This document shows positions 1-23,806 of a stretch of DNA of 23,937 nt, piece by piece. Source of the DNA: a virus; the IMG/VR virus record IMGVR_UViG_3300006738_000082, positions 1-23,937 of that record; one strand, written 5' to 3'. Position numbers and translations under genes: made by a program. A model generated the notes under the pieces. The model saw only the letters and a list, made by a program, of their open reading frames with translations, had not been told where the DNA came from and did no database searches. How positions within the stretch are numbered: position 1 is the first letter of the stretch; each line of letters starts with the position of its first letter.

Positions 1-309
1 CGCACAGGCCACATCCATCGCGGTGATGACAAACCGGTCAATACCATCTTCCATCGCGTCGTGAATGCCCTTGTTCCACGCTCCGGCGACAGAGCGTTCC
101 TTGTCGGCCACCAGTTCAAATGGATAATCGGTATGGTCGGATATCTCGTCGGGCGGGTCGCCATTCCATCTGTTGGCGATGATGCGAATCCTGTTAATGC
201 GATCAGACGTGATCGTTTCAAGGTTCGACAGGAACATATCGTACAGCGCCCGTTCCTGAACCACGATAGGGATGATGACATCAATTAGCGAGGTATCGTT
301 CGATGGCAT
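1..309 (-). CDS. Glycosyltransferase family 2-like protein (N-terminal part)
   Basis: The reading frame is open from an ATG at 309 and runs off the left edge, giving 103 residues of a longer protein. It begins MPSNDTSLIDVIIPIVVQER, followed about 65 residues later by VADKERSVAGAWNKGI and then DRFVITAMDV. This order (a hydrophobic VIIPIV first strand, a basic/Asn-containing middle motif that sits near the nucleotide-sugar in GT-A folds, and a second hydrophobic strand ending in Asp) is typical of family 2 GT-A glycosyltransferases, which move a sugar from a nucleotide-sugar to an acceptor in the cytoplasm. The start overlaps the end of the upstream GT9-like gene by 29 bases. An in-frame start is absent nearer the stop; the ATG that overlaps the stop (281) is in another frame. 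The acceptor is unknown; the neighbouring Ser-rich virion protein is a candidate. The family call is by eye; the missing C-terminus prevents a finer one. Confidence 0.65.
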   Translation of the reverse strand, partial: MPSNDTSLIDVIIPIVVQERALYDMFLSNLETITSDRINRIRIIANRWNGDPPDEISDHTDYPFELVADKERSVAGAWNKGIHDAMEDGIDRFVITAMDVACA

Positions 310-1573
310 CAATCACCGTCCCTGGTGTAATAAGTTCCATGCAAAATGCCGTCGCCCATTCGTCGTCGCCATGATAAACCGGACGCTCGCATGTGTCATT
401 GTCCTTCTCGTCGCCGTCGCCCATCTCCTGACACCGACTCTTCCAGCATCCACCTGTCGCACAACAAGGGAGCGCCCCAATCGTGTGAAGGAACTGATGG
501 CCGGGATACTGTTCCCAATGAGCGGGTTCGCGGCCACCCGCTACAACGACACACGGACGCAACGATCCGTCTTTCGTAGGTACTGCTGCCGCCAGGTGCA
601 TTGCGAATGTAACAGGACATAAAACGCCTGCTGAATGATACACCAAACGAATGAACTCACGAAGGTTTGTTTTGCCGACCAGATCGAGAACACCGTTCAG
701 CGGTGGATGATGATGATCCTCCTCGCCGCACTGGACGAACTGGATTCTGTTCTTGAAGTGATCAACCACCTCCTGAGAGTATCGCCAGTATTTCGCGGTG
801 AAGTCCTGCTTGCTGCCAGCGTTGATGATCCAGAACGGGCCTTTCCATCCGAACACCTGTTCGACCTGATTAACCCAACCCTTCTCCTCGTCGCTGATGT
901 GAATGTCACCCTTGAACGGGCCGGGCGGGATAGTGATGCCCATCTGTCTTTCCATGTCTTCACGATATCCGTCAATGAAGTGGCACGGTCGCTGGTTGCT
1001 TTGATTGATCAGCGGATAGTGGATGTCGTACCGGGTGAACTTGTCATCCTCATTGTTTTCCAGATCGGCAACGTGAGTCACATACGGATTGTTGTCCCAA
1101 ATCTCCTTACAGCTTGTAGCGACATGAATTTTGTATTCACCTGGATGCGCCTTGGCCAGATCGCGCACCGCTGCGGTCATCACGGTGATATCACCGGGTG
1201 AAAGATGGGATGCCAGAACAATCGGATTGAGCGATGATCGCTCCGTCGTCTTTCTGCCGCAACCGTTACAGCACGCTGGAATACCCGGAACCATCTCCGA
1301 AAGCGTACATTCGCCAAAAACCTTGCATCCCCACACCTCGGCCTGTTCGTTGCCGCAGCATCCACCGACGATTTCTGTGTTACGGATGAACTTCTCAAGT
1401 GACAGGCAACGGGCCTGCCCGTTGCCTTTGGCGCGCGGGGGCTTGGGTTTATTGACGGGAGGCGACCACTGACCTGTCACCTCGCCTGTTTCCGTGACTA
1501 TTTCGTACCGATACGCGCCGGTCGCGTCATCGCCATCAACAATGTGCCTGCCTTTTGTCAATCTGGCGTTCAT
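281..1573 (-). CDS. Heptosyltransferase-like glycosyltransferase (GT9-type) with N-terminal Cys-rich domain
   Basis: A protein of 430 residues. The C-terminal half has the features of family 9 (ADP-heptose:LPS heptosyltransferase-like, GT-B fold) enzymes: FWIINAGS followed by a basic KYW, then DLVGKTNLREFIRLVYHS, then VTFAMHLAAAVP, the equivalent of the usual TGxMHxAAA nucleotide-sugar motif, and VVVAGGREPAHWE. The N-terminal 120 residues hold many cysteines (CC, CxxxxxC, CCNGCG), suggesting a small zinc-binding domain; similar Cys-rich modules occur, as I recall, in glycosyltransferase proteins of Planctomycetota. The C-terminus has further cysteines (PCC, GGCWKSRC). The ATG at 1573 forms an ATGA overlap with the preceding gene; a TTG six bases further upstream is less likely. 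Family GT9 enzymes normally build LPS core, but here the gene sits in a phage tail operon, so modification of the virion or of the host surface is possible. Fold call fairly sure, substrate unknown. Confidence 0.72.
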   Translation of the reverse strand: MNARLTKGRHIVDGDDATGAYRYEIVTETGEVTGQWSPPVNKPKPPRAKGNGQARCLSLEKFIRNTEIVGGCCGNEQAEVWGCKVFGECTLSEMVPGIPACCNGCGRKTTERSSLNPIVLASHLSPGDITVMTAAVRDLAKAHPGEYKIHVATSCKEIWDNNPYVTHVADLENNEDDKFTRYDIHYPLINQSNQRPCHFIDGYREDMERQMGITIPPGPFKGDIHISDEEKGWVNQVEQVFGWKGPFWIINAGSKQDFTAKYWRYSQEVVDHFKNRIQFVQCGEEDHHHPPLNGVLDLVGKTNLREFIRLVYHSAGVLCPVTFAMHLAAAVPTKDGSLRPCVVVAGGREPAHWEQYPGHQFLHTIGALPCCATGGCWKSRCQEMGDGDEKDNDTCERPVYHGDDEWATAFCMELITPGTVIDAIERYLAN

Positions 1574-3468
1574 GGGCAATCATCTATCTCAAGGACCATT
1601 GTTCCACCGTGACCGGCAAACGAACTATGCCCACCAGATGGGCTACAGTCACCTAGCGCCAAACCGTTTGTAATCACAACCGTATCACCAGCTGCAGGGG
1701 CGGGGAAATACGCATCAAACACAAATCCACCGTCACAGGATGCACCACCCGTCACCAGTGCCGTTGCTCTCCAAAGCCCGTCCCCGCAGGACACCACATA
1801 ATTCATGTGGAACTGGAACCCGCCAAACGGAACATCAGAACAATTGGCGTTCCGAATATTCTGTGATCGGAGGGCAGGGTTTGATGTATTCCATTCATAC
1901 GGTTGAACCAGAGACAGCAAAGGGAGCGAGTTGTTGTTGATCTCGTTGACATAAAGCGTGTAGTTGCCGCCCTGACAGGCATAGCAACACGGGGTCACAT
2001 TCTCAAGGTGGATTGTCATTCCCACCGTTTGGGGATCGCAATCCCACTCGCACACCAGCGCACCTGATGACGCACTGCTAACACCAGACGATACCCCGGC
2101 GCTTGACACGCCGGAACTTGATGAGGCGCATTTCGACAGATCGGTCGTGACCTGCGGAACGGGCAAAGCGCCAACACCAATACCCACCTCGTAGGGCGAT
2201 ACCGTGTCCGGGCATGGGCAGGCAAGACTATCAAACGTGCCTGTTGATTCGTAGTAGGTGCTGCCCCCCGCCACATCGTAAATCTCGTACTTCCAGGTCG
2301 CACCATCCTGAATCTTGCGGACTTCGTAGTTCTCGTCACCACGCTTCCACCATCGGCACGAAGCGGGGCCTGGATCGTAGATGCCGTTCACCACACTGCT
2401 GCCCGCGCCGTACACGCAAATGACGCACGTTGAGGGTGAGGGGGAACTAGCGGCAGAACTGCTTACCGCCGATGACGAAGAAAGCGACGACGCGCTGGAA
2501 CTCTGGCACAAAGACAGATCGCGGGTAACGGTGATCTCACCAGCCGGTGTCGGGTTGTCCCTTATGAAAAAATACTCCACGTTGTCGTAGGCATCAGGTG
2601 GGCAATCAGGCAGTTCGCCAAGAGGGTGCAGTCCCGTAATGTAGTAATGCTTCGCGGGGTCTGGTGGGCCGTCTGGCGTATCGGTGATTCGATAGGTACT
2701 CCCGTTTTCGTCATCGAGTAGCGTGTCATGGGCGTAGCAGTAAGCCTGGCCGTTGTCGTTTGTCCAATAGTCCTTGCCGCTGCTGTTCGTGCCGCTGTAG
2801 CGATAGATGCCGTTGGCCAGCGTCCAACCAGCGCCGGTCACGCAGAACACGCAGCGCGTGGTACTGCTTGAGGATGTGCTTATGGACGATGCGGATATGG
2901 ACGAACTGATGGCAGAACTGCTCACCTCGCTGCTGAACGGCGATGAACTGCTGATCGACACAGAGGAACTACTGATCGAGGAACTGCTGATCGATGAAGA
3001 TGACACGCTGCCCTTACAGCAATACTCGAAACGCAGAATGGGATCGTGCTTCTCGGTGTACTTCACCAGCGCGATCTGATACGACGGCACCGGAACCTGG
3101 GCGTTCAGGTTGAACTCATAGAGCGTCCCCGACCGGTAGTTCTTCTTCGCACCACTCACCGGATAAGCCGCGCCTATCGACTTGTTCTCGTAACTGTTTG
3201 ATATGTCTTCCGGTTGCTGCTCGATGAAGGTGTACTTCCCACCACCGTGATTGGCGGTGAGTTTGATCGGCACCATTTCTTTGGTGGAGACTGGATCAGG
3301 AGCAGCGCCGAGGATCAGGCCGGTAGGAAGGTTTTCGCCAAGGATGCCAGGGCCGAAGATATCGCGGTTCAGTTTGGATAACTGCGCGGCCACCTCATCC
3401 ATCCGTTCCCAGAGTTCCGGGCCAAACAGATTGAGTCCATCAAAGTTACTTCCCTGTTCAAGCGACAC
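1570..3468 (-). CDS. Putative virion protein with three serine-rich linkers
   Basis: A modular protein of 632 residues. Residues 1-153 form a domain shared with the preceding gene product (common motifs EMVPIKL, GKYTF, NAQVPV, ILRFEYCCKGS). A 50-residue linker that is mostly serine with some Ile/Val (about 154-203) leads to a domain opening RCVFCVTGAG and NGIYRYSG. A second Ser-rich linker (about 322-346) leads to a related domain opening CVICVYGAG and NGIYDPG. A third linker (about 448-469) leads to a Cys-containing C-terminal domain. I chose the GTG at 3468 because it has AGGA about eight bases upstream, starts four bases after the previous stop, and makes the N-terminus (VSLEQGSNFDGLNL) line up with the paralogue (MDLKPSGNFAGLNL). 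An ATG at 3507 would add 13 residues and overlap the previous gene by 35 bases. No signal peptide is seen. The position in the tail operon suggests a virion appendage. The function is not known. Confidence 0.8.
   Translation of the reverse strand: MSLEQGSNFDGLNLFGPELWERMDEVAAQLSKLNRDIFGPGILGENLPTGLILGAAPDPVSTKEMVPIKLTANHGGGKYTFIEQQPEDISNSYENKSIGAAYPVSGAKKNYRSGTLYEFNLNAQVPVPSYQIALVKYTEKHDPILRFEYCCKGSVSSSSISSSSISSSSVSISSSSPFSSEVSSSAISSSISASSISTSSSSTTRCVFCVTGAGWTLANGIYRYSGTNSSGKDYWTNDNGQAYCYAHDTLLDDENGSTYRITDTPDGPPDPAKHYYITGLHPLGELPDCPPDAYDNVEYFFIRDNPTPAGEITVTRDLSLCQSSSASSLSSSSAVSSSAASSPSPSTCVICVYGAGSSVVNGIYDPGPASCRWWKRGDENYEVRKIQDGATWKYEIYDVAGGSTYYESTGTFDSLACPCPDTVSPYEVGIGVGALPVPQVTTDLSKCASSSSGVSSAGVSSGVSSASSGALVCEWDCDPQTVGMTIHLENVTPCCYACQGGNYTLYVNEINNNSLPLLSLVQPYEWNTSNPALRSQNIRNANCSDVPFGGFQFHMNYVVSCGDGLWRATALVTGGASCDGGFVFDAYFPAPAAGDTVVITNGLALGDCSPSGGHSSFAGHGGTMVLEIDDCP
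2945..2994. repeat. Short DNA repeats encoding part of the first serine-rich linker
   Basis: The plus-strand 14-mer gaactgctgatcga occurs at 2945-2958 and 2981-2994 and with one change at 2966-2979. On the coding (minus) strand this gives repeated Ser/Ile codons. The linker therefore seems to have grown at least in part by slippage or unequal exchange at the DNA level, and its length may vary between relatives. Confidence 0.75.
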
Positions 3469-3472
3469 ATTG

Positions 3473-3976
3473 TTATCCTGACGAACTGCCCTTGCAGCAA
3501 TATTCAAACCTCAAGATCGGTTCGTGTTCCTCGGTGTACTTTACAAAGGCCATCTGGTACGACCCGACCGGAACCTGGGCGTTCTTGTTGCTTTCCCAAC
3601 ACTCGCCTTCTCGGTAATACTGAATCTCGTTATCCACCTCGTACTGAGCGCCAATACTCTTGTCTTCCCATCCACCGTCATCATCGCCCTGATCATCAGC
3701 AGTCGGTTGCTGTTCGCGGAAGGTGTACTTGCCGCTGCCTTCGTTGGTCAGCAGTTTGATCGGCACCATCTCGCGCGTGTCCGGGACAATGGGATCGACG
3801 GCAAAGACAATCCCCGCATCAGTGTTCTGACTACCCCCCATGCGCGGGCCGAACTGCGCGTGCTTTAGCTTGTACGCCTGCATCGCGCACTCTTCAAGGA
3901 CACCGATAATCAACTCCTGATCCTCTTCGACCAGGAGATTCAAACCGGCAAAGTTTCCACTGGGTTTCAAATCCAT
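3473..3976 (-). CDS. Putative virion protein, paralogue of the Ser-rich protein's N-terminal domain
   Basis: A protein of 167 residues. It matches the N-terminal domain of the next gene along most of its length: NFAGLNL against NFDGLNL, TREMVPIKL against TKEMVPIKL, GKYTFREQQP against GKYTFIEQQP, KSIGAQY against KSIGAAY, NAQVPVGSYQMAFVKYTEEHEPILRFEYCC against the same string with a few changes. It stops at CCKGSSSG, just where the downstream copy runs into its serine linker. The middle is acidic (DDQGDDDGG). It shares a TAATG start/stop overlap with the gene before it. The two genes look like a tandem duplication; this one is the short, linker-free form. The place in the operon suggests a structural role. 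No known family is recognised. Confidence 0.8.
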   Translation of the reverse strand: MDLKPSGNFAGLNLLVEEDQELIIGVLEECAMQAYKLKHAQFGPRMGGSQNTDAGIVFAVDPIVPDTREMVPIKLLTNEGSGKYTFREQQPTADDQGDDDGGWEDKSIGAQYEVDNEIQYYREGECWESNKNAQVPVGSYQMAFVKYTEEHEPILRFEYCCKGSSSG

Positions 3977-7223: not shown

Positions 7224-8062
7224 GATGTTTCGTCATCCTTCTTCGTTAGCAATGCGGTGTGCGACCACGTTCCAGTCATGCCTCGACGTTCGCATTCTTT
7301 TGAAATCGCGCCCTTGTATCGTTCCTTCATCCCGTTCAGGAACACATGGACAACTTCCATCGAAGGCAATTTACCTTCCGACATAACTTCCTTCTCTGCC
7401 GCCAGCAGACGGTTGATTTCGTGCTGAACCGCGCCGCCATTGATTCCCAACTGTCGCAGGTAAATATGATCGCCCTGATCGATCAGATTCATCGGTGATG
7501 CCCGTGCTGCATCAAGCGCCTGAGCGCAGGCAGTCATAATGTGATGTTCTTCTTCATGCTTCTCGAAATCTTCCTCAGTGATTTCATCAACGCCAAGAAA
7601 TTCTTTGATCGAATCATACTGCTCGATCAGGCCAGCGACACGACGAATCGCGCCGCTTAGATTCTCCTCGATCTGCATGATCCCGCCGCGAAGTTCGTCA
7701 GCTTCGGCCTCAAGCAAGTCAGCTTCCAGACATTCATCGCTGGTTTCGGCAGACCGCTTGATTGCCGCATCACGTTCCTTAATAGCGATCTCGATCTCAT
7801 GCTTTCTGATGTTGACCGTACTTTCGCGGATACCACCTTTGGCCGATTCAATCTCGCTGCAAATCTGCCGCAGATTTCGGAACGGTGACGGGTGCGCAAT
7901 GGTCAGCGCGTTCGTCATCGTTTGCGACTGCCGCTTGCGAAACTGCTGCGTGTCCTTCTCAACAAGCGGCATGTATTCACGAATCACATCGAGCATCGCA
8001 CCGTGCGTTTGCTCAAGGCGAACAGGCAGGGCGTTTATTGTTGTGGCTAGTTCTGTGGTCAC
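7205..8062 (-). CDS. Coiled-coil phage protein downstream of the fibre gene
   Basis: A 285-residue, mostly helical protein. Residues about 65-165 are rich in Glu, Lys, Arg, Ile and Leu with heptad-like spacing (EIESAKGGIRESTVNIRKHEI, then ADLLEAEADELRGGI), suggesting a long coiled coil. A second helical region follows (DEITEEDFEKHEEEHH, RLLAAEKEVMSEG). The GTG start shares the TAGTG overlap with the fibre stop codon, so its translation is probably coupled to the fibre. No membrane segment, no known domain. It might be a fibre-associated or internal virion protein. Confidence 0.7.
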   Translation of the reverse strand: MTTELATTINALPVRLEQTHGAMLDVIREYMPLVEKDTQQFRKRQSQTMTNALTIAHPSPFRNLRQICSEIESAKGGIRESTVNIRKHEIEIAIKERDAAIKRSAETSDECLEADLLEAEADELRGGIMQIEENLSGAIRRVAGLIEQYDSIKEFLGVDEITEEDFEKHEEEHHIMTACAQALDAARASPMNLIDQGDHIYLRQLGINGGAVQHEINRLLAAEKEVMSEGKLPSMEVVHVFLNGMKERYKGAISKECERRGMTGTWSHTALLTKKDDETSCSEPS

Positions 8063-10608
8063 TACTGCAACCCTCCATTTGAACCGGACAGACCTGCGGC
8101 CATGCCTATGGCTTCGGTTAAATCGCCAAAGTCAGTTGCGTTGCCAGTGCTTTGAATGACAACAGTTTCGATGATATTGGACGTGAACGACCCGCCACCC
8201 GCACGACATGCTTTTGTCAGGTCACTTTCACCACTGGCATAAGCAGCAGCAGCAGAACAATCACCGAAGTCAGTAGCGTTTGCTGCGGACGCTATGGTGA
8301 GGTAATCAATGTAGTTCCGGTATGCACCAGAGTCAGCACCAAACGAAATCCCCCTGGTCGCACTGCCGCAACCCGCGTCAGAACCCGCTCCCCAGGTTTG
8401 CGATGTGTCGCCAAAATCAGTCGCGTTTCCCAAACTGGCAATCGTTACATAATCAATCGTGATATGACTTCCAGATCCAGCAAAAGCAATCGCACGGGTC
8501 GAACTTGATATGCCGGAAGCGCTGTTCCTCGCAAGGGTCAAATCACCGAAGTCAGAAGCGTTGCCAAGACTGTCAATCGTAATGTAGTCAATCGTTCCGG
8601 TGGCGGTGCATCGGCCCAAACTAATACCGCGAGTTGCACTTCCACAACCATTGCGACCGCCAGCGGCAGCAACCGCATCGCCAAAGTCAGCAGCATCCCC
8701 AACTGATGACAACGTGACGTAATCGATTGTGTTCACGTTGGAATAACAGGCACTTGCGTTTGTATTGCCTGCGAAGATCACACCCCGAGTTGAATTGGCG
8801 ATACCGCCTGCGGTTTGCCTTGCTTGCGTCGAGTCACCAAAGTCGGTTGCGTTGCCCAAACTGGCAATCGTCCAATAATCAAGAACGTCACTGATCCCTC
8901 TGCCACCAGCACGAATAGCCCGATCATAGACTCCTGATTCCTCTGTCACTGATCCTTCAATAACTGTGGTTTCCCAAACGGTCGGTCCTGATGCTGCTGT
9001 GCAGAACAGGCGAACCACATCGTAAAGCCCATCAGCATTCAACAACACCTTGACATTGCTGCTCGATGTTTGCGAGTCGTTGGTTTGATGCGTGATCTTC
9101 TGTCCCGCGGCGCTGGCGTTCGATGAAACATTCCAGTCGTTGTTACCGTTAATCTCGATCCAGTCATCAACACTTGCTGTTTCCGGGAGAGTCAGGGTGC
9201 AGGCGGTCGCGGAATCAATGAAGTACCGTGTCCCGGCAACCATTGTCTTTGATGTCGCTGTGACTACTTCAGCGCTGACCCCCGCGCCGCCAACCTGATC
9301 ATCGACGTAAGCCTTAACGCTTTGCTGCGTCGGCACCTTGGTAGCCGAGTCAGATGTCATGTCATCTTCGTCAATCGAGCCAAGAAGTGAAGCATCAGCA
9401 ACGATGGCATCCAGTTCGGTCAACGCATCGATATCACTGGTTTGAACGTAACTGCTAAGGTCAAGGTCAAGGATGTCAGCAGTAACATGTGTGTGCGGCG
9501 AAACCTCACCCTCGGTGCCTTCGTGCATCTTCAGGTCGTCAATGAAACCGCTGATGGTCGCGCCGCCACCGCGAACCTCGATCTTCAATTTCTGAATCGT
9601 GTTCGTGGATGGATTGAAAGCGCTCTTGGGAATCGAGACCGGTTGCCAGTCCGTCGTGTTGCTGCTGTCAAAGCCATACGTCCCGTTCTTCACGATCACG
9701 TTGTTGCTCTTGACCACATCGCTGGCGTTGAGCAATTGCAGGCGCAACTTCTTTCGTCCTGGCCATACGCCGCCTGACTTGATGAAGAACTCAAACGTGT
9801 CAATGTCGCTGATGTCCTGACCGCTCCCAGCGTCCAACACCATTTGATCACTACTTGCCGCGCTGGCGAACTCCATCGATTTCGTGCCGTTGTGAGCGTC
9901 GTTCGTTGAAGCGTCTGTCCACGTTCCGTCCGATGTGGTTGTCCAGTCGTCGTCTTCGTCGTAGATGACCGTGGTGGTCAACTGCGGTTCTGTCGCCAGA
10001 GCGGCAACCGTCACCTGTCGAAGTTTGACCTGGCCATCAGGTACGTCGGGCGCAACCGGAGTCGCCGCTGCGGTGCCGGTCACCTTCGTGATCGTGCCGC
10101 TGTCGGTGGCGACGATGAGATCGATGCGTGGATTGCTGGCATCGGCGGCATCAAGCGTGACCGTGGTGATCGGAGCAGAGAACTTGAACCCGTCAATGCA
10201 GTACAGGTTGGCCACCGCGATGAAATCGAGGTCTTCATCCCACACCACCGACGCATTGGTGACGAACGTACCCTGGAAGTTCAGATGATTGAGCGTGTCA
10301 ACGATCCACTGGATTCTGTCACCGGGTAACGCAATCCACACATCAGCAGACGCACCGGACAGGCTGATCTTCGTCGTGCCACTTGAACCGTCGTAAACCG
10401 TGTCGCGGCTCAACGTGGTGCCAGACGCGGTATAGGTGCCGAGTCCGGTTTCCCAATTGTCACCGTCGATGATGAGGTATTCACCCTCTTCGCCGTCATT
10501 CAGCTTGTCGCCAACCGCCTGATAACCGGACACAACCCCGACAAGGGTGACTGTACCCTGGCCGCTCGTCGTAGTTGTTTCGCGCACTCTCGATGGAAAT
10601 TGGGGCAT
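8062..10608 (-). CDS. Tail fibre with N-terminal virion-binding region and six C-terminal repeats
   Basis: A protein of 848 residues, the longest in the window. The N-terminus (RVRETTTTSGQGTVTLVGVV, then WETGLGTYTASGTTLSRDTV) matches a widespread phage fibre N-terminal module. Around residues 215-370 there is a beta-sandwich-like region ending GFIDDLKMHEG that resembles carbohydrate-binding modules. SATKVPTQQSVKAYVD near residue 430 is a common fibre motif. From about residue 556 to the end there are six tandem repeats built on IDYVTIASLGNATDFGD. No protease or lyase motif is seen, and no intramolecular chaperone domain. The ATG follows AAGGA by about eight bases. Role: host recognition, probably through surface glycans; the specificity cannot be told. 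The family-level call is strong, the domain limits are approximate. Confidence 0.85.
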   Translation of the reverse strand: MPQFPSRVRETTTTSGQGTVTLVGVVSGYQAVGDKLNDGEEGEYLIIDGDNWETGLGTYTASGTTLSRDTVYDGSSGTTKISLSGASADVWIALPGDRIQWIVDTLNHLNFQGTFVTNASVVWDEDLDFIAVANLYCIDGFKFSAPITTVTLDAADASNPRIDLIVATDSGTITKVTGTAAATPVAPDVPDGQVKLRQVTVAALATEPQLTTTVIYDEDDDWTTTSDGTWTDASTNDAHNGTKSMEFASAASSDQMVLDAGSGQDISDIDTFEFFIKSGGVWPGRKKLRLQLLNASDVVKSNNVIVKNGTYGFDSSNTTDWQPVSIPKSAFNPSTNTIQKLKIEVRGGGATISGFIDDLKMHEGTEGEVSPHTHVTADILDLDLSSYVQTSDIDALTELDAIVADASLLGSIDEDDMTSDSATKVPTQQSVKAYVDDQVGGAGVSAEVVTATSKTMVAGTRYFIDSATACTLTLPETASVDDWIEINGNNDWNVSSNASAAGQKITHQTNDSQTSSSNVKVLLNADGLYDVVRLFCTAASGPTVWETTVIEGSVTEESGVYDRAIRAGGRGISDVLDYWTIASLGNATDFGDSTQARQTAGGIANSTRGVIFAGNTNASACYSNVNTIDYVTLSSVGDAADFGDAVAAAGGRNGCGSATRGISLGRCTATGTIDYITIDSLGNASDFGDLTLARNSASGISSSTRAIAFAGSGSHITIDYVTIASLGNATDFGDTSQTWGAGSDAGCGSATRGISFGADSGAYRNYIDYLTIASAANATDFGDCSAAAAYASGESDLTKACRAGGGSFTSNIIETVVIQSTGNATDFGDLTEAIGMAAGLSGSNGGLQ
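8085..8940. repeat. Six tandem repeats in the fibre C-terminus
   Basis: Each unit contains a version of IDYxTIxSLGNATDFGD followed by a small-residue stretch such as SSTRGIxFAG. The codons for the DFGD core appear on the plus strand near 8123, 8261, 8408, 8543, 8678 and 8834, giving steps of 138, 147, 135, 135 and 156 bases (46, 49, 45, 45 and 52 residues). All steps are multiples of three. The last unit (IIETVVIQSTGNATDFGD) is truncated at the C-terminus. Six units of this length would suit a closed six-bladed beta-propeller (kelch-like), which is inference. Confidence 0.85.
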
Positions 10609-16599: not shown

Positions 16600-16671
16600 T
16601 TGCGGTGGCGAGAGTCGAACTCGCTGTTTACCGGTTATGAACCGGTTGCCTTGCCGTTTGGCTCCACCGCT
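16600..16671 (-). tRNA. tRNA with anticodon CAU (Met elongator or Ile2-type)
   Basis: Read on the minus strand, the 72 bases fold as a cloverleaf: acceptor AGCGGTG/CACCGCA (1:72 is an A-A mismatch), D-arm GCC-AAACGGCAA-GGC, anticodon stem ACCGG/CCGGT around TTCATAA, a five-base variable loop, and T-arm GCGAG-TTCGACT-CTCGC. Discriminator is A; CCA is not encoded. The D-arm and weak 1:72 pair recall tRNA-Gln in design, but the anticodon is CAU. The three G-C pairs of an initiator anticodon stem are absent, so it is not an initiator. Whether it carries Met, or Ile after lysidine formation, cannot be decided by eye. Position 8 is G rather than the usual U. Confidence 0.8.
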
Positions 16672-20822: not shown

Positions 20823-21434
20823 TCAGGTCACCATTGATGGCGTTTCTGCAACCGTAGGAACGTGAAACTCGAATCTCACCCCTTCAAGATTGCGTTTGGA
20901 GAATCGTTCTTCGTCAACAAGGATGTCGCATTCGTCGCCCCATGACCTCACGTTGGGGAACAGATCACGCCAGGCGCGGCTGACGTAAAGCCTGTCGGGC
21001 ATGTACGCCTGGCCAGCGGCCATCATCTCCTTCGTGGGGAGCGCGGCCGTGTAAGCCTGATCGACCTGATCGAGTACCTTGCGCCGCTTTTCGGGATCAA
21101 ATCCCTCGGGCGGGAGCGGCCACAACTGCATCGTGCCGTTGTCGAGAGCAATGATCTGCCAGTCGGAGGGAGGCATCGTTCCAGGTGGAACAGTCATGCC
21201 CGGTTTGAGCGTGGAGGTATCGGGGGCCGGGAGTTGGAGACTGTTGTTGGCCGACATCGCGTCGTCAACGCGCTTCTGGATGATCGCGTCAAGATCGGAC
21301 AGCGATACAGTGATCGTCTCTTCCTGCTTTTTCGCTTTCTTCTTCGATTTCTTCTTTGCTGACTTCTTCTTGAGAACCAGCGGTGTTTCTTCCGGTACTT
21401 CCAGGGTTGTCTGTTCTTCTTCGTGCGCCGTCAT
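20823..21434 (-). CDS. Lys-rich hypothetical protein between terminase and portal
   Basis: A protein of 203 residues. Residues 22-36 are a dense Lys/Ser stretch (KKKSAKKKSKKKAKK) after an acidic start, then a coiled segment (LSDLDAIIQKRVDDAM), and a folded region from about residue 90 (SDWQIIALDNGTMQLWPLPPEG, RLYVSRAWRDLFPNV). The start overlaps the terminase stop as ATGA. The basic tract could bind DNA or be a disordered linker. Gene order would fit a small terminase partner or head-closure protein, but no small-terminase fold (helix-turn-helix) is seen, so I leave it unassigned. Confidence 0.7.
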   Translation of the reverse strand: MTAHEEEQTTLEVPEETPLVLKKKSAKKKSKKKAKKQEETITVSLSDLDAIIQKRVDDAMSANNSLQLPAPDTSTLKPGMTVPPGTMPPSDWQIIALDNGTMQLWPLPPEGFDPEKRRKVLDQVDQAYTAALPTKEMMAAGQAYMPDRLYVSRAWRDLFPNVRSWGDECDILVDEERFSKRNLEGVRFEFHVPTVAETPSMVT

Positions 21435-23116
21435 CGAGTTGTCCTTTCCTTGATTGCGTCCACGCTAAACGTGATGCGTGTCGCTTTGGGTTGGGGATTG
21501 AGAAGTTCGTTGTAGCCGAGTCTTTCTTCCAGACTGCCCTTCTTCCATTTCGTCTGCTGGCTGCCACGCCAAAGATCGCGGTCGTTACCGATACCCACCG
21601 CGTAACTGGTCGCGTCAACCTGGTCGTCCCAGGTGCCTTGAGGGAACTGGAGGAGTTCGTTTTCGTATTCGCCGAGCCACGGTGCGGCCTGGGGTAACCA
21701 GACCTTCTCGGCCTCAAACCAGACCTGGGCGATCCTTGATCGAGTCACCTTGTCGCGATCCGCTTTCAGCTTCTTGACGTTCAGGCCGTCACGCTGGAAT
21801 CGCTGAATCACCGCAGAACCGTAGTGCTTGTCTTCAATGCAGAACCAGACCGGATCAAACCGTGTCCACATCGCCAGCATCGCGGCCTCGACCGTCGGCG
21901 CTTCAACCTGCTCACGCCACTGATCGACAAGGAAAAGAGTCGTGCTTTGCTCGAAACCCGGCATCTTCGCGCGCTCGCCGTCCCAGACCTGAATCACCGT
22001 GTGACTCGCCATCTCCTTCTCGCTCAAAGCAAGGTCACAGGTAATAAATCGCCAGCAATCGGCCTTGAGAACCCGTCGCACCTTATTACCCGGGTAATGG
22101 CATTCGTAGTAATCGCCTGAGTCCTTGTAGTAGCGGAACCACTGACGCTTGAACAAACCACCGGATGCTTCAAGAGGTGTCTGCTGGTACTGCGCCATGT
22201 AGTGCATAGCGCTCTCGGGCGTGGCCTTGATCTTGTCGATCACCGCCTGGGGGAACTTGGCCGGAAAAAGTAACTCACCCTTTTCCGTGCGGGGGTCGTT
22301 CGGATGCTTGTCAGGATGATCAGGGTCGAACTCCATGGGCAGAACGACGTGACGTACATTGCGACGGATCAGATGACCGGCAAGGTCATTGTGGTGAATC
22401 CGCTGCATGATCAACACGCGCGGGTTACTGGCCATGTCGTTCATACGAGAAGCAAGAACGTGGTCATAGACGTGCAGACACTCTTCCATGCGAATCTGAA
22501 TCTGCTCACTTGAACCCACAACCGCCTTTTTGGCGTCAAGCGGGTCGTCAATGACCTGAGCATCACCGCGCTTGCCCGTGACGCTCGCGCCCATGGACAT
22601 GCACTGGTGAAAGCCGCGCTTCGTGTTTTCGTAGTAGTGCTTCTCTCTCTGGTCTGCTGACAGTCCCCACATCGGGATCGAGGCGTCTTCGCGGTTCTTC
22701 ATCTCCACGGCGATCTGATAGCACTCATCCTGAACGATCTCTTTACGCCGACGCGAGTCACGCTTGACCAGATCGTCATCGTTGGAAAGGTACAGGGCGC
22801 GGAGGTGGGGGCGCTGCAACCACTCCCATGTCGGCCAGAAGACCGAAACCAACAGACTCTTCATGCAGCCGGGAGGGATGCAGATAACAAGTTCGGTGCA
22901 TTCACCGCGCGTCACCGCCTCAAGTTCATCGCAAATGAGGGAGATATGCCAGTTCCACACCAGGTCGGTGCCGGGTTCAACAATCTCCCAGGCCGCTTTA
23001 ACGAAATCCTCAAGCGACCCAAGCATCTTGTCGGCCCGACGCAGCATGACATGGTGGTCAATGGCATCGCGCAGTATTTGCCGCTCGTCAAGTGATAACT
23101 CGACAGACGGATTCAT
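21431..23116 (-). CDS. Terminase large subunit
   Basis: A protein of 561 residues with both domains. ATPase: Walker A-type PPGCMKS at 81-87 (the usual form is PPxxGKS, so Cys-Met replace the usual pair), VIDDPL at 188-193 as Walker B, and VLIMQRIHHNDL around 234-245 as the coupling motif. Nuclease (RNase H fold): D361 in FITCDLAL, E428 in CIEDK and D497/D498 with D501 in WDDQVDA, the three metal sites. This is the large terminase that pumps DNA into the head and cuts it. It is the first gene of the minus-strand block, after the promoter region. The ATG lies after AGGCTG or GGAG. Very confident; the non-canonical Walker A is notable but permitted. Confidence 0.95.
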   Translation of the reverse strand: MNPSVELSLDERQILRDAIDHHVMLRRADKMLGSLEDFVKAAWEIVEPGTDLVWNWHISLICDELEAVTRGECTELVICIPPGCMKSLLVSVFWPTWEWLQRPHLRALYLSNDDDLVKRDSRRRKEIVQDECYQIAVEMKNREDASIPMWGLSADQREKHYYENTKRGFHQCMSMGASVTGKRGDAQVIDDPLDAKKAVVGSSEQIQIRMEECLHVYDHVLASRMNDMASNPRVLIMQRIHHNDLAGHLIRRNVRHVVLPMEFDPDHPDKHPNDPRTEKGELLFPAKFPQAVIDKIKATPESAMHYMAQYQQTPLEASGGLFKRQWFRYYKDSGDYYECHYPGNKVRRVLKADCWRFITCDLALSEKEMASHTVIQVWDGERAKMPGFEQSTTLFLVDQWREQVEAPTVEAAMLAMWTRFDPVWFCIEDKHYGSAVIQRFQRDGLNVKKLKADRDKVTRSRIAQVWFEAEKVWLPQAAPWLGEYENELLQFPQGTWDDQVDATSYAVGIGNDRDLWRGSQQTKWKKGSLEERLGYNELLNPQPKATRITFSVDAIKERTTR

Positions 23117-23236: not shown

Positions 23237-23806
23237 ATGAACACGCTCTGGGATGACGTAGCGGAAAAGGACTTCCAGCAGTTCCTGAAAAAGAACGACA
23301 ATAGTCACCTTGATCGCCCCGTCTTCAACATCGATGATGACCATGAGTGGATACTGAAAGAGGCCACAAGGCGGCATGAAGACAAAAAGAACCGGAACAG
23401 TTCCAGGCAACTCACAGATGTCGCAAGAGCGATCAACACCCATTACATGGGCCTGGTCGGTGAATACGCCTTTTCCCGGTTGACCGGATTACCCATCGAC
23501 ACCTCTGAACGCCCCTTCGGCGACAACGGAGTTGATTTCACCCTCAAGACAAAGCACGGCAGTTTCACGGTGGATGTCAAAACCAGCAGTCGCGGCGAGT
23601 GGTTGTTTGTCAACCACATCCGGGCCGACATCTACGTTCTTGCGTGGCATCGGGACAAGAATACGGTGTCACTGACCGGGTGGGAATGGGCGAAAACCGT
23701 CAGAGCAATGGAACCGGCCATCTACCACAAGAAGGGCATCCCCACCCACTGCTTGAAGAAATTGAGACCGATTCAGGAACTCGTTTCACAGATGGAGAAG
23801 TCATGA
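23237..23806 (+). CDS. PD-(D/E)XK superfamily nuclease-like protein
   Basis: A 189-residue protein. The catalytic pattern is E76 in LVGEYAFSRLTG, D100 in DNGVDFTL and D113-V-K115 in FTVDVKTSS, the E/D...D-x-K of the PD-(D/E)XK fold, followed by DIYVLAWH and a helical end. The N-terminal 65 residues are charged and helical. It differs from the other nuclease in the window (16681-17187) in all but the core. It is divergent from the terminase operon and coupled to the next gene by ATGA. There is no ribosome site before the ATG, fitting leaderless translation. Possible roles: recombination, replication or host-DNA processing. Fold call good, specificity unknown. Confidence 0.7.
   Translation: MNTLWDDVAEKDFQQFLKKNDNSHLDRPVFNIDDDHEWILKEATRRHEDKKNRNSSRQLTDVARAINTHYMGLVGEYAFSRLTGLPIDTSERPFGDNGVDFTLKTKHGSFTVDVKTSSRGEWLFVNHIRADIYVLAWHRDKNTVSLTGWEWAKTVRAMEPAIYHKKGIPTHCLKKLRPIQELVSQMEKS

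Follow-up and report, generated by a model that had tools for sequence, protein, structure and literature searches.

Gene content at the left end of the window

The window analyzed here is a 23,937-base virus record that is probably a fragment, and its host is an uncultured bacterium, perhaps of the planctomycetes. The structural genes lie on the minus strand, in a run that starts with the terminase gene (21431-23116, minus). The GT9-type glycosyltransferase gene is on the same strand as, and comes after, this run, which places it within the structural operon. A terminase relatives search recovered one 18-kb contig (L130) with a terminase identical to that of the window; judging by synteny, this contig seems to end before the Ser-rich genes would be reached. 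At the left end, the leftward gene order is 3473-3976, the Ser-rich gene, the GT9-type gene, and an ORF cut by the contig end, all on the minus strand, with the following features:

3473..3976, minus: paralogue of the N-terminal domain of the Ser-rich protein, 167 aa, C-terminus CCKGSSSG, without a long linker (alignment)
1570..3468, minus: Ser-rich protein of 632 aa, starting at GTG; its N-terminal domain is followed by three Ser linkers with small Cys-containing domains between them (ORF, composition)
3010..3468, minus: the Ser-rich protein's N-terminal domain; the upstream gene is its paralogue (54% identity by alignment)
2863..3009, minus: Ser linker 1, residues 154-202, 34/49 Ser, SSSSI/V-type repeats (composition)
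2431..2514, minus: Ser linker 2, residues 319-346, 17/28 Ser (composition)
2065..2124, minus: Ser linker 3, residues 449-468, 12/20 Ser (composition)
1570..1573, minus: ATGA stop/start overlap of the Ser-rich and GT9-type genes (sequence)
281..1573, minus: GT9-type glycosyltransferase, 430 aa from the ATG (PF01075 match below cut-off, predicted fold)
1232..1573, minus: N-terminal extension of the enzyme (residues 1-115), a short stretch predicted as beta plus a zinc-ribbon-like, Cys-rich part that is unstructured (AlphaFold2, inspection)
284..1231, minus: GT-B catalytic core (fold model, 58-member alignment)
341..466, minus: four-Cys element C372, C378, C397, C413, reminiscent of the TibC iron finger (all four invariant in the 58-member alignment)
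1..309, minus: truncated ORF, called GT2-like in a preliminary description of this DNA; identity unsupported by searches

The preliminary description reported three Ser linkers, one of about 50 residues, and we confirm linkers of 49, 28, and 20 residues. Overall, the protein is 15.2% Ser over 632 aa. Its densest 25 residues contain 19 Ser, and at least 16 was reached in 0 of 2000 shuffles of the protein; every other ORF stays at or below 7 per 25 residues (26 window ORFs examined). All six Ser codons (AGY and TCN) are used in linkers 1 and 3, and a mix of five in linker 2. Since the codons are mixed within linkers, selection likely acts on the protein rather than on a DNA repeat. The Ser-rich protein gave no significant match in the databases searched, phage records included, and no relative of it was found outside the window, so the pairing cannot be traced for exactly this protein. 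AlphaFold2 gave no confident fold for its N-terminal domain (pLDDT 32), and a search of viral_contigs returned no relatives of the paralogue at 3473-3976. Based on its position at the end of the leftward structural operon, the Ser-rich protein is probably a virion protein.

Two glycosyltransferases had been described as coupled to the Ser-rich gene by ATGA. This applies to the GT9-type gene (1570-1573) but not to the GT2-like ORF, which overlaps the GT9-type gene by 29 nt (ATG at 309). The truncated ORF also yielded no significant relative in Pfam, NCBIfam, PHROGs, PDB sequences, 50,697 phage records, or a viral_contigs scan. Second glycosyltransferase-like genes do recur beside GT9 at related loci: relatives of the L003 gene at 9201-9998 occur in four phage loci and relatives of the L004 gene at 8915-9712 in six loci (each count includes the query's own locus).

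The GT9-type enzyme

We assign the enzyme to an as yet unnamed subfamily of GT9. Its Pfam match to GT9 (PF01075) falls below the curated cut-off (19.9 bits vs 22, E 5e-4), while an AlphaFold2 model combined with a structure search predicts a GT-B heptosyltransferase fold. The earlier GT9-like assignment is upheld by the predicted fold rather than by the profile score. The closest structures to the model are the Veillonella parvula GT9 protein 3tov (Z 24.1), WaaF 1psw (Z 21.6), and TibC 4rb4 (Z 20.2), over 258-271 residues. The model is confident from about residue 115, mostly >90 (here and below, enzyme residue numbers count from a TTG at 1579, which gives 432 aa, and not from the ATG). A Cys pattern akin to that of the N-terminal extension is also seen at two other loci, L060 and L251.

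Four residues, D130, K257, D259, and K263, are invariant in 58/58 aligned members; Asp130 (GD motif) and Lys263 (AK-W motif) align with WaaF positions. No aligned subfamily member reaches an NCBIfam heptosyltransferase cut-off in the tests run here (best E ~1e-6), and searches of 50,697 phage and 72,556 plasmid records returned no relatives of the window enzyme. A clear membrane segment is absent, and the expected site of action is the cytosol, in which virion proteins are synthesized. We dropped a DNA glycosylation reading; to our knowledge, GT9 is not a DNA-modifying family.

Serine-rich neighbors of the enzyme subfamily

To describe gene neighborhoods, we used 129 loci with the GT9 subfamily, 49 viral (48 of them from the relatives search) and the best 80 of 100 cellular. 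An ORF was scored as Ser-rich if it had at least 150 aa and at least 14 Ser in 25 residues, with flanks of at most 10 kb. Neighborhoods were scored by base distance; a greedy gene caller lost many GT9 genes in GC-rich loci. Cellular loci were counted together, along with any prophages among them.

A Ser-rich ORF lies on the GT9 strand in 47/129 loci and on the opposite strand in 6, with the cellular part again the best 80 of 100; by origin, same-strand ORFs are found at 15/49 viral and 32/80 cellular loci. In the first 500 bp downstream of GT9, their density is 0.225 per kb, and past 6 kb it has dropped to ~0.01 per kb or lower. When GT9 sequences are collapsed at 90% identity, a Ser-rich partner is retained in 13/36 viral and 22/63 cellular clusters (the latter from the best 80 of 100 loci). 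When the length limit is lowered to 110 aa, the counts are 57 on the same strand vs 7 on the opposite one. At this limit, the cellular loci (best 80 of 100) have 45 ORFs in 1255 kb, whereas the 379 kb surrounding ordinary GT9 genes has none (P 7e-6). This control comprised 20 loci from the same cellular genomes, and since these genomes were mostly picked for showing the association, it is conservative. No Ser-rich ORFs were found in the phage control of ten terminase loci (133 kb) either. The separation depends on a stringent definition: at 11 or 10 Ser per 25 residues, test and control are no longer distinguished (6/20 and 13/20 control loci positive).

These data bear on the possibility that Ser-rich proteins and the GT9 subfamily are both simply common in the same taxa or habitats and co-occur without a functional link. 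Planctomycetota and Verrucomicrobiota are indeed frequent in the locus set, which spans several bacterial phyla plus phages, and the phage controls are thin. We nonetheless regard this explanation as very unlikely given the strand bias, the decay of Ser-rich density with distance, and the empty control loci in the same genomes. In several phages, Ser-rich ORFs are also present at a distance from GT9 (7 in 333 kb of distal sequence); part of the link is therefore at the whole-genome level. We also scanned viral_contigs in reverse, for runs of ten TCN codons, which gave at least 120 stretches. Among the matches listed, few are convincing Ser-rich genes, many look like acidic proteins on the opposite strand, and none of the loci includes GT9. 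As most matches are unconvincing, the scan does not fairly gauge how many Ser-rich proteins lack GT9.

On the enzyme tree, the Ser-rich label changes at least 26 times by parsimony, so the pairing is not one inherited locus. The rows nearest to the window enzyme by tree path are viral loci L005-L007, each with an adjoining Ser-rich gene. The preliminary description had proposed checking whether relatives always keep Ser linkers and enzymes together and had named enzymes lacking such a partner as evidence against its proposal. Such enzymes are in fact the majority: 79/129 loci lack a Ser-rich ORF in the flanks that could be scored (up to 10 kb; cellular loci the best 80 of 100). A clade of 18 viral GT9 rows has no Ser-rich neighbor at all, nor has a clade of 17 cellular, mostly verrucomicrobial rows. 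This suggests that part of the subfamily likely has other substrates.

An alternative for the window enzyme is that it modifies a host envelope sugar (LPS-like core or capsule) against superinfection, with the Ser-rich adjacency incidental. In addition to the many members without a Ser-rich neighbor, the nearest curated models are LPS heptosyltransferases, and WaaF and WaaC are close by fold. We consider envelope modification unlikely here: the gene closes the structural operon and overlaps a structural-type gene, and in the same bacterial genomes ordinary GT9 genes lack Ser-rich neighbors, whereas the subfamily has many. The four invariant Cys also argue against it, as we know of no such feature in WaaF or WaaC.

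Related loci and the candidate substrate

Several related loci give structural or enzymatic context. At L004, genes for terminase, portal, and major head protein are present, and at L019 the order is a tape-measure gene, then the Ser-rich gene two genes on, then GT9. L003 encodes a Ser-rich protein of its own and has two genes that look like glycosyltransferases; it also has a probable tail fibre gene (weak PHROG match) followed by TIGR04415 repeats (138 bits, cut-off 30) and a TIGR04414 gene (562 bits, cut-off 200) at 138-1442. The TibC N-terminal domain PF21129 is present in L003 as well. The same record has a second TIGR04414 gene and eight TIGR04415 matches in all. On the 547-kb contig L201, TIGR04414 (8412-10283, 293 bits) is near Ser-rich ORFs, one of which, in a region other than its Ser part, matches a virion structural PHROG. 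By these profile matches, L003 and L201 use a known protein O-heptosylation enzyme, and L003 also has its known substrate type.

The Ser-rich partners themselves are varied. Cellular ones include RHS-like (sub-threshold) and laminin-G-like proteins, those at L057 and L129 are small Ser-tailed proteins that by inspection resemble Tat-signal or lipoprotein precursors, and no general NGxY domain was found to be common to the Ser-rich proteins. With the Ser stretch on unrelated domains, the common element is the stretch and not one protein family. This weighs against another option, in which GT9 glycosylates a different virion part (the Cys-rich inter-linker domains, the paralogue at 3473-3976, or a tail fibre) and the Ser linkers serve simply as flexible spacers: the statistical partner is the Ser stretch itself, whether on RHS-like, laminin-G-like, Tat/lipoprotein-like, or phage structural proteins. 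Members without Ser-rich neighbors do need a different substrate, and mycobacteriophages are described as modifying proteins of the capsid and tail tube (Freeman 2023, cited in PMC12363180), but for the window we think that a different virion target is improbable.

Proposed function and known systems

The locus combines a gene pair with an ATGA overlap, a predicted GT9 fold, conserved residues, and a pairing that recurs in phages and bacteria. Our preferred explanation, which we hold to be reasonably probable, is that GT9 is a soluble cytosolic enzyme that adds O-linked sugar to the Ser linkers of a structural protein, either ahead of virion assembly or while it proceeds. The Ser-rich structural protein and GT9 would be made from the same late message. 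Given the GT9 fold and family, the sugar would most likely come from nucleotide-activated heptose or from some related donor of the host, and the acceptors would be Ser hydroxyls of the three disordered linkers. Such transfer would result in a virion appendage with sugar-coated linkers between its domains, stiffened and resistant to proteases; possible benefits are protection of the disordered linkers, spacing, and masking. The original idea that the neighboring enzyme adds sugar to the Ser linkers thus receives strong, independent backing from the recurrent same-strand pairing and from the O-heptosyltransferase/substrate pair of L003, but is tempered by the many subfamily loci without a Ser-rich ORF.

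More broadly, the occurrence of this family beside Ser-rich proteins in many unrelated phages and bacteria suggests an undescribed sugar-coating of Ser linkers, virions included. We give roughly even chances to a general version, in which the four-Cys GT9 subfamily is cytosolic Ser-linker glycosylation machinery across phages and many bacterial phyla, phages coat their own virions, and the subfamily is an additional lineage of heptosyltransferase-like enzymes that modify proteins, beside TibC. If so, a four-Cys GT9 with a Ser linker would be a rule for predicting protein O-glycosylation from DNA, covering Planctomycetota, Verrucomicrobiota, Acidobacteriota, Gemmatimonadota, and their phages, where protein glycosylation is little known, and virion glycosylation would extend beyond mycobacteriophages. 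Our literature search, with subscription journals mostly outside its reach, found no description of a GT9 subfamily with Ser-rich partners.

Gram-positive Ser-rich repeat adhesins have dedicated glycosyltransferases encoded nearby, an accessory Sec system, and a wall anchor. The preliminary description drew its analogy from them, and it fits in function, with a Ser-rich segment and an adjacent enzyme gene. However, the adhesin enzymes are of other families, none of which is found beside the Ser-rich gene of this fragmentary record; the window instead has a GT9-type neighbor and short linkers, and its closest enzymes are the cytosolic heptosyltransferases TibC and WaaF. WaaF/WaaC (GT9) share the fold and the positions of the GD-motif Asp and AK-W Lys, but the window enzyme differs in scoring below the cut-off of all curated models, in its four invariant Cys, and in its Ser-rich genomic partner.

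Phage-encoded glycosyltransferases that modify virion proteins, as the genes suggest for the window, have been described in mycobacteriophages Che8, Corndog, and Myrna (PMC12363180, citing Freeman 2023). Those of Corndog are in the structural region, and virion glycosylation was suggested there earlier (PMC4351075). Compared by description, the mycobacteriophage enzymes act on capsid and tail tube, and the portions of these sources available to us mention no Ser-linker partner.

TibC/Aah (BAHT, TIGR04414) is the system with which the window shares the predicted GT-B heptosyltransferase fold, a four-Cys element late in the C-lobe, a gene adjoining a repetitive hydroxyl-rich candidate substrate and, putatively, cytosolic protein O-glycosylation. 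Protein O-heptosylation by TibC-type enzymes is known, and TibC binds iron via Cys-339/342/358/370, spacing 2-15-11 (PMC4358343). The L003 BAHT has the same spacing by inspection, whereas that of the window enzyme is ~5-18-15. The window enzyme also lacks a TIGR04414 match and the TibC_1st domain PF21129 (Pfam), and its partner is a Ser linker rather than strand-loop-strand repeats (TIGR04415), which are absent from the fragmentary window record. Altogether, virion glycosylation as such is already known, and it is the pairing of a GT9 enzyme with a putative Ser-linker substrate that appears to be new.

Other features of the window

Three further features were noted:
8062-10608, protein that matches a virion structural PHROG and has NATDFGD-type motifs repeated in its C-terminal half
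16601-16670, tRNA-Met gene within the structural region
23237-23806 (+), a plus-strand ORF at the right end

Inspected by eye, the NATDFGD-type repeats appear propeller-like and the plus-strand ORF has a nuclease-like look.

GT9 fusions and neighbors

A Cys-rich, zinc-ribbon-like pattern is fused to the window GT9-type glycosyltransferase (1232-1573), and similar patterns occur in separate proteins of two compared loci (L060 14357-14761 and L251 8345-9037). Three other loci (L062, L071, and L085) carry an island common to Nitrospira, Pseudomonas, and Caballeronia, which includes a GT9 and also encodes proteins that combine PPYPPFPPYPP repeats with Ser runs, as well as large proteins with an N-terminal MA-QSL-WTALPNG. 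The tested proteins of this island had no Pfam match.

TIGR04414 O-heptosyltransferases in viral contigs

In Microcystis phage Mel-JY01 (PP395634.1), the protein at L310 4577-8257, annotated as methyltransferase FkbM, has a GT4-like domain at its N-terminal end and a TIGR04414 O-heptosyltransferase domain at its C-terminal end. Close by lies a gene whose annotation reads structural protein. On a 547 kb viral contig (L201 2162-10283, -), a TIGR04414 enzyme is encoded close to Ser-rich ORFs, one of which matches a virion structural PHROG. The phage contig L003 (138-5537, -) consecutively encodes a probable tail fibre, a TIGR04415 strand-loop-strand repeat protein (the known substrate type), and a TIGR04414 O-heptosyltransferase, and its record includes a second TIGR04414 gene.
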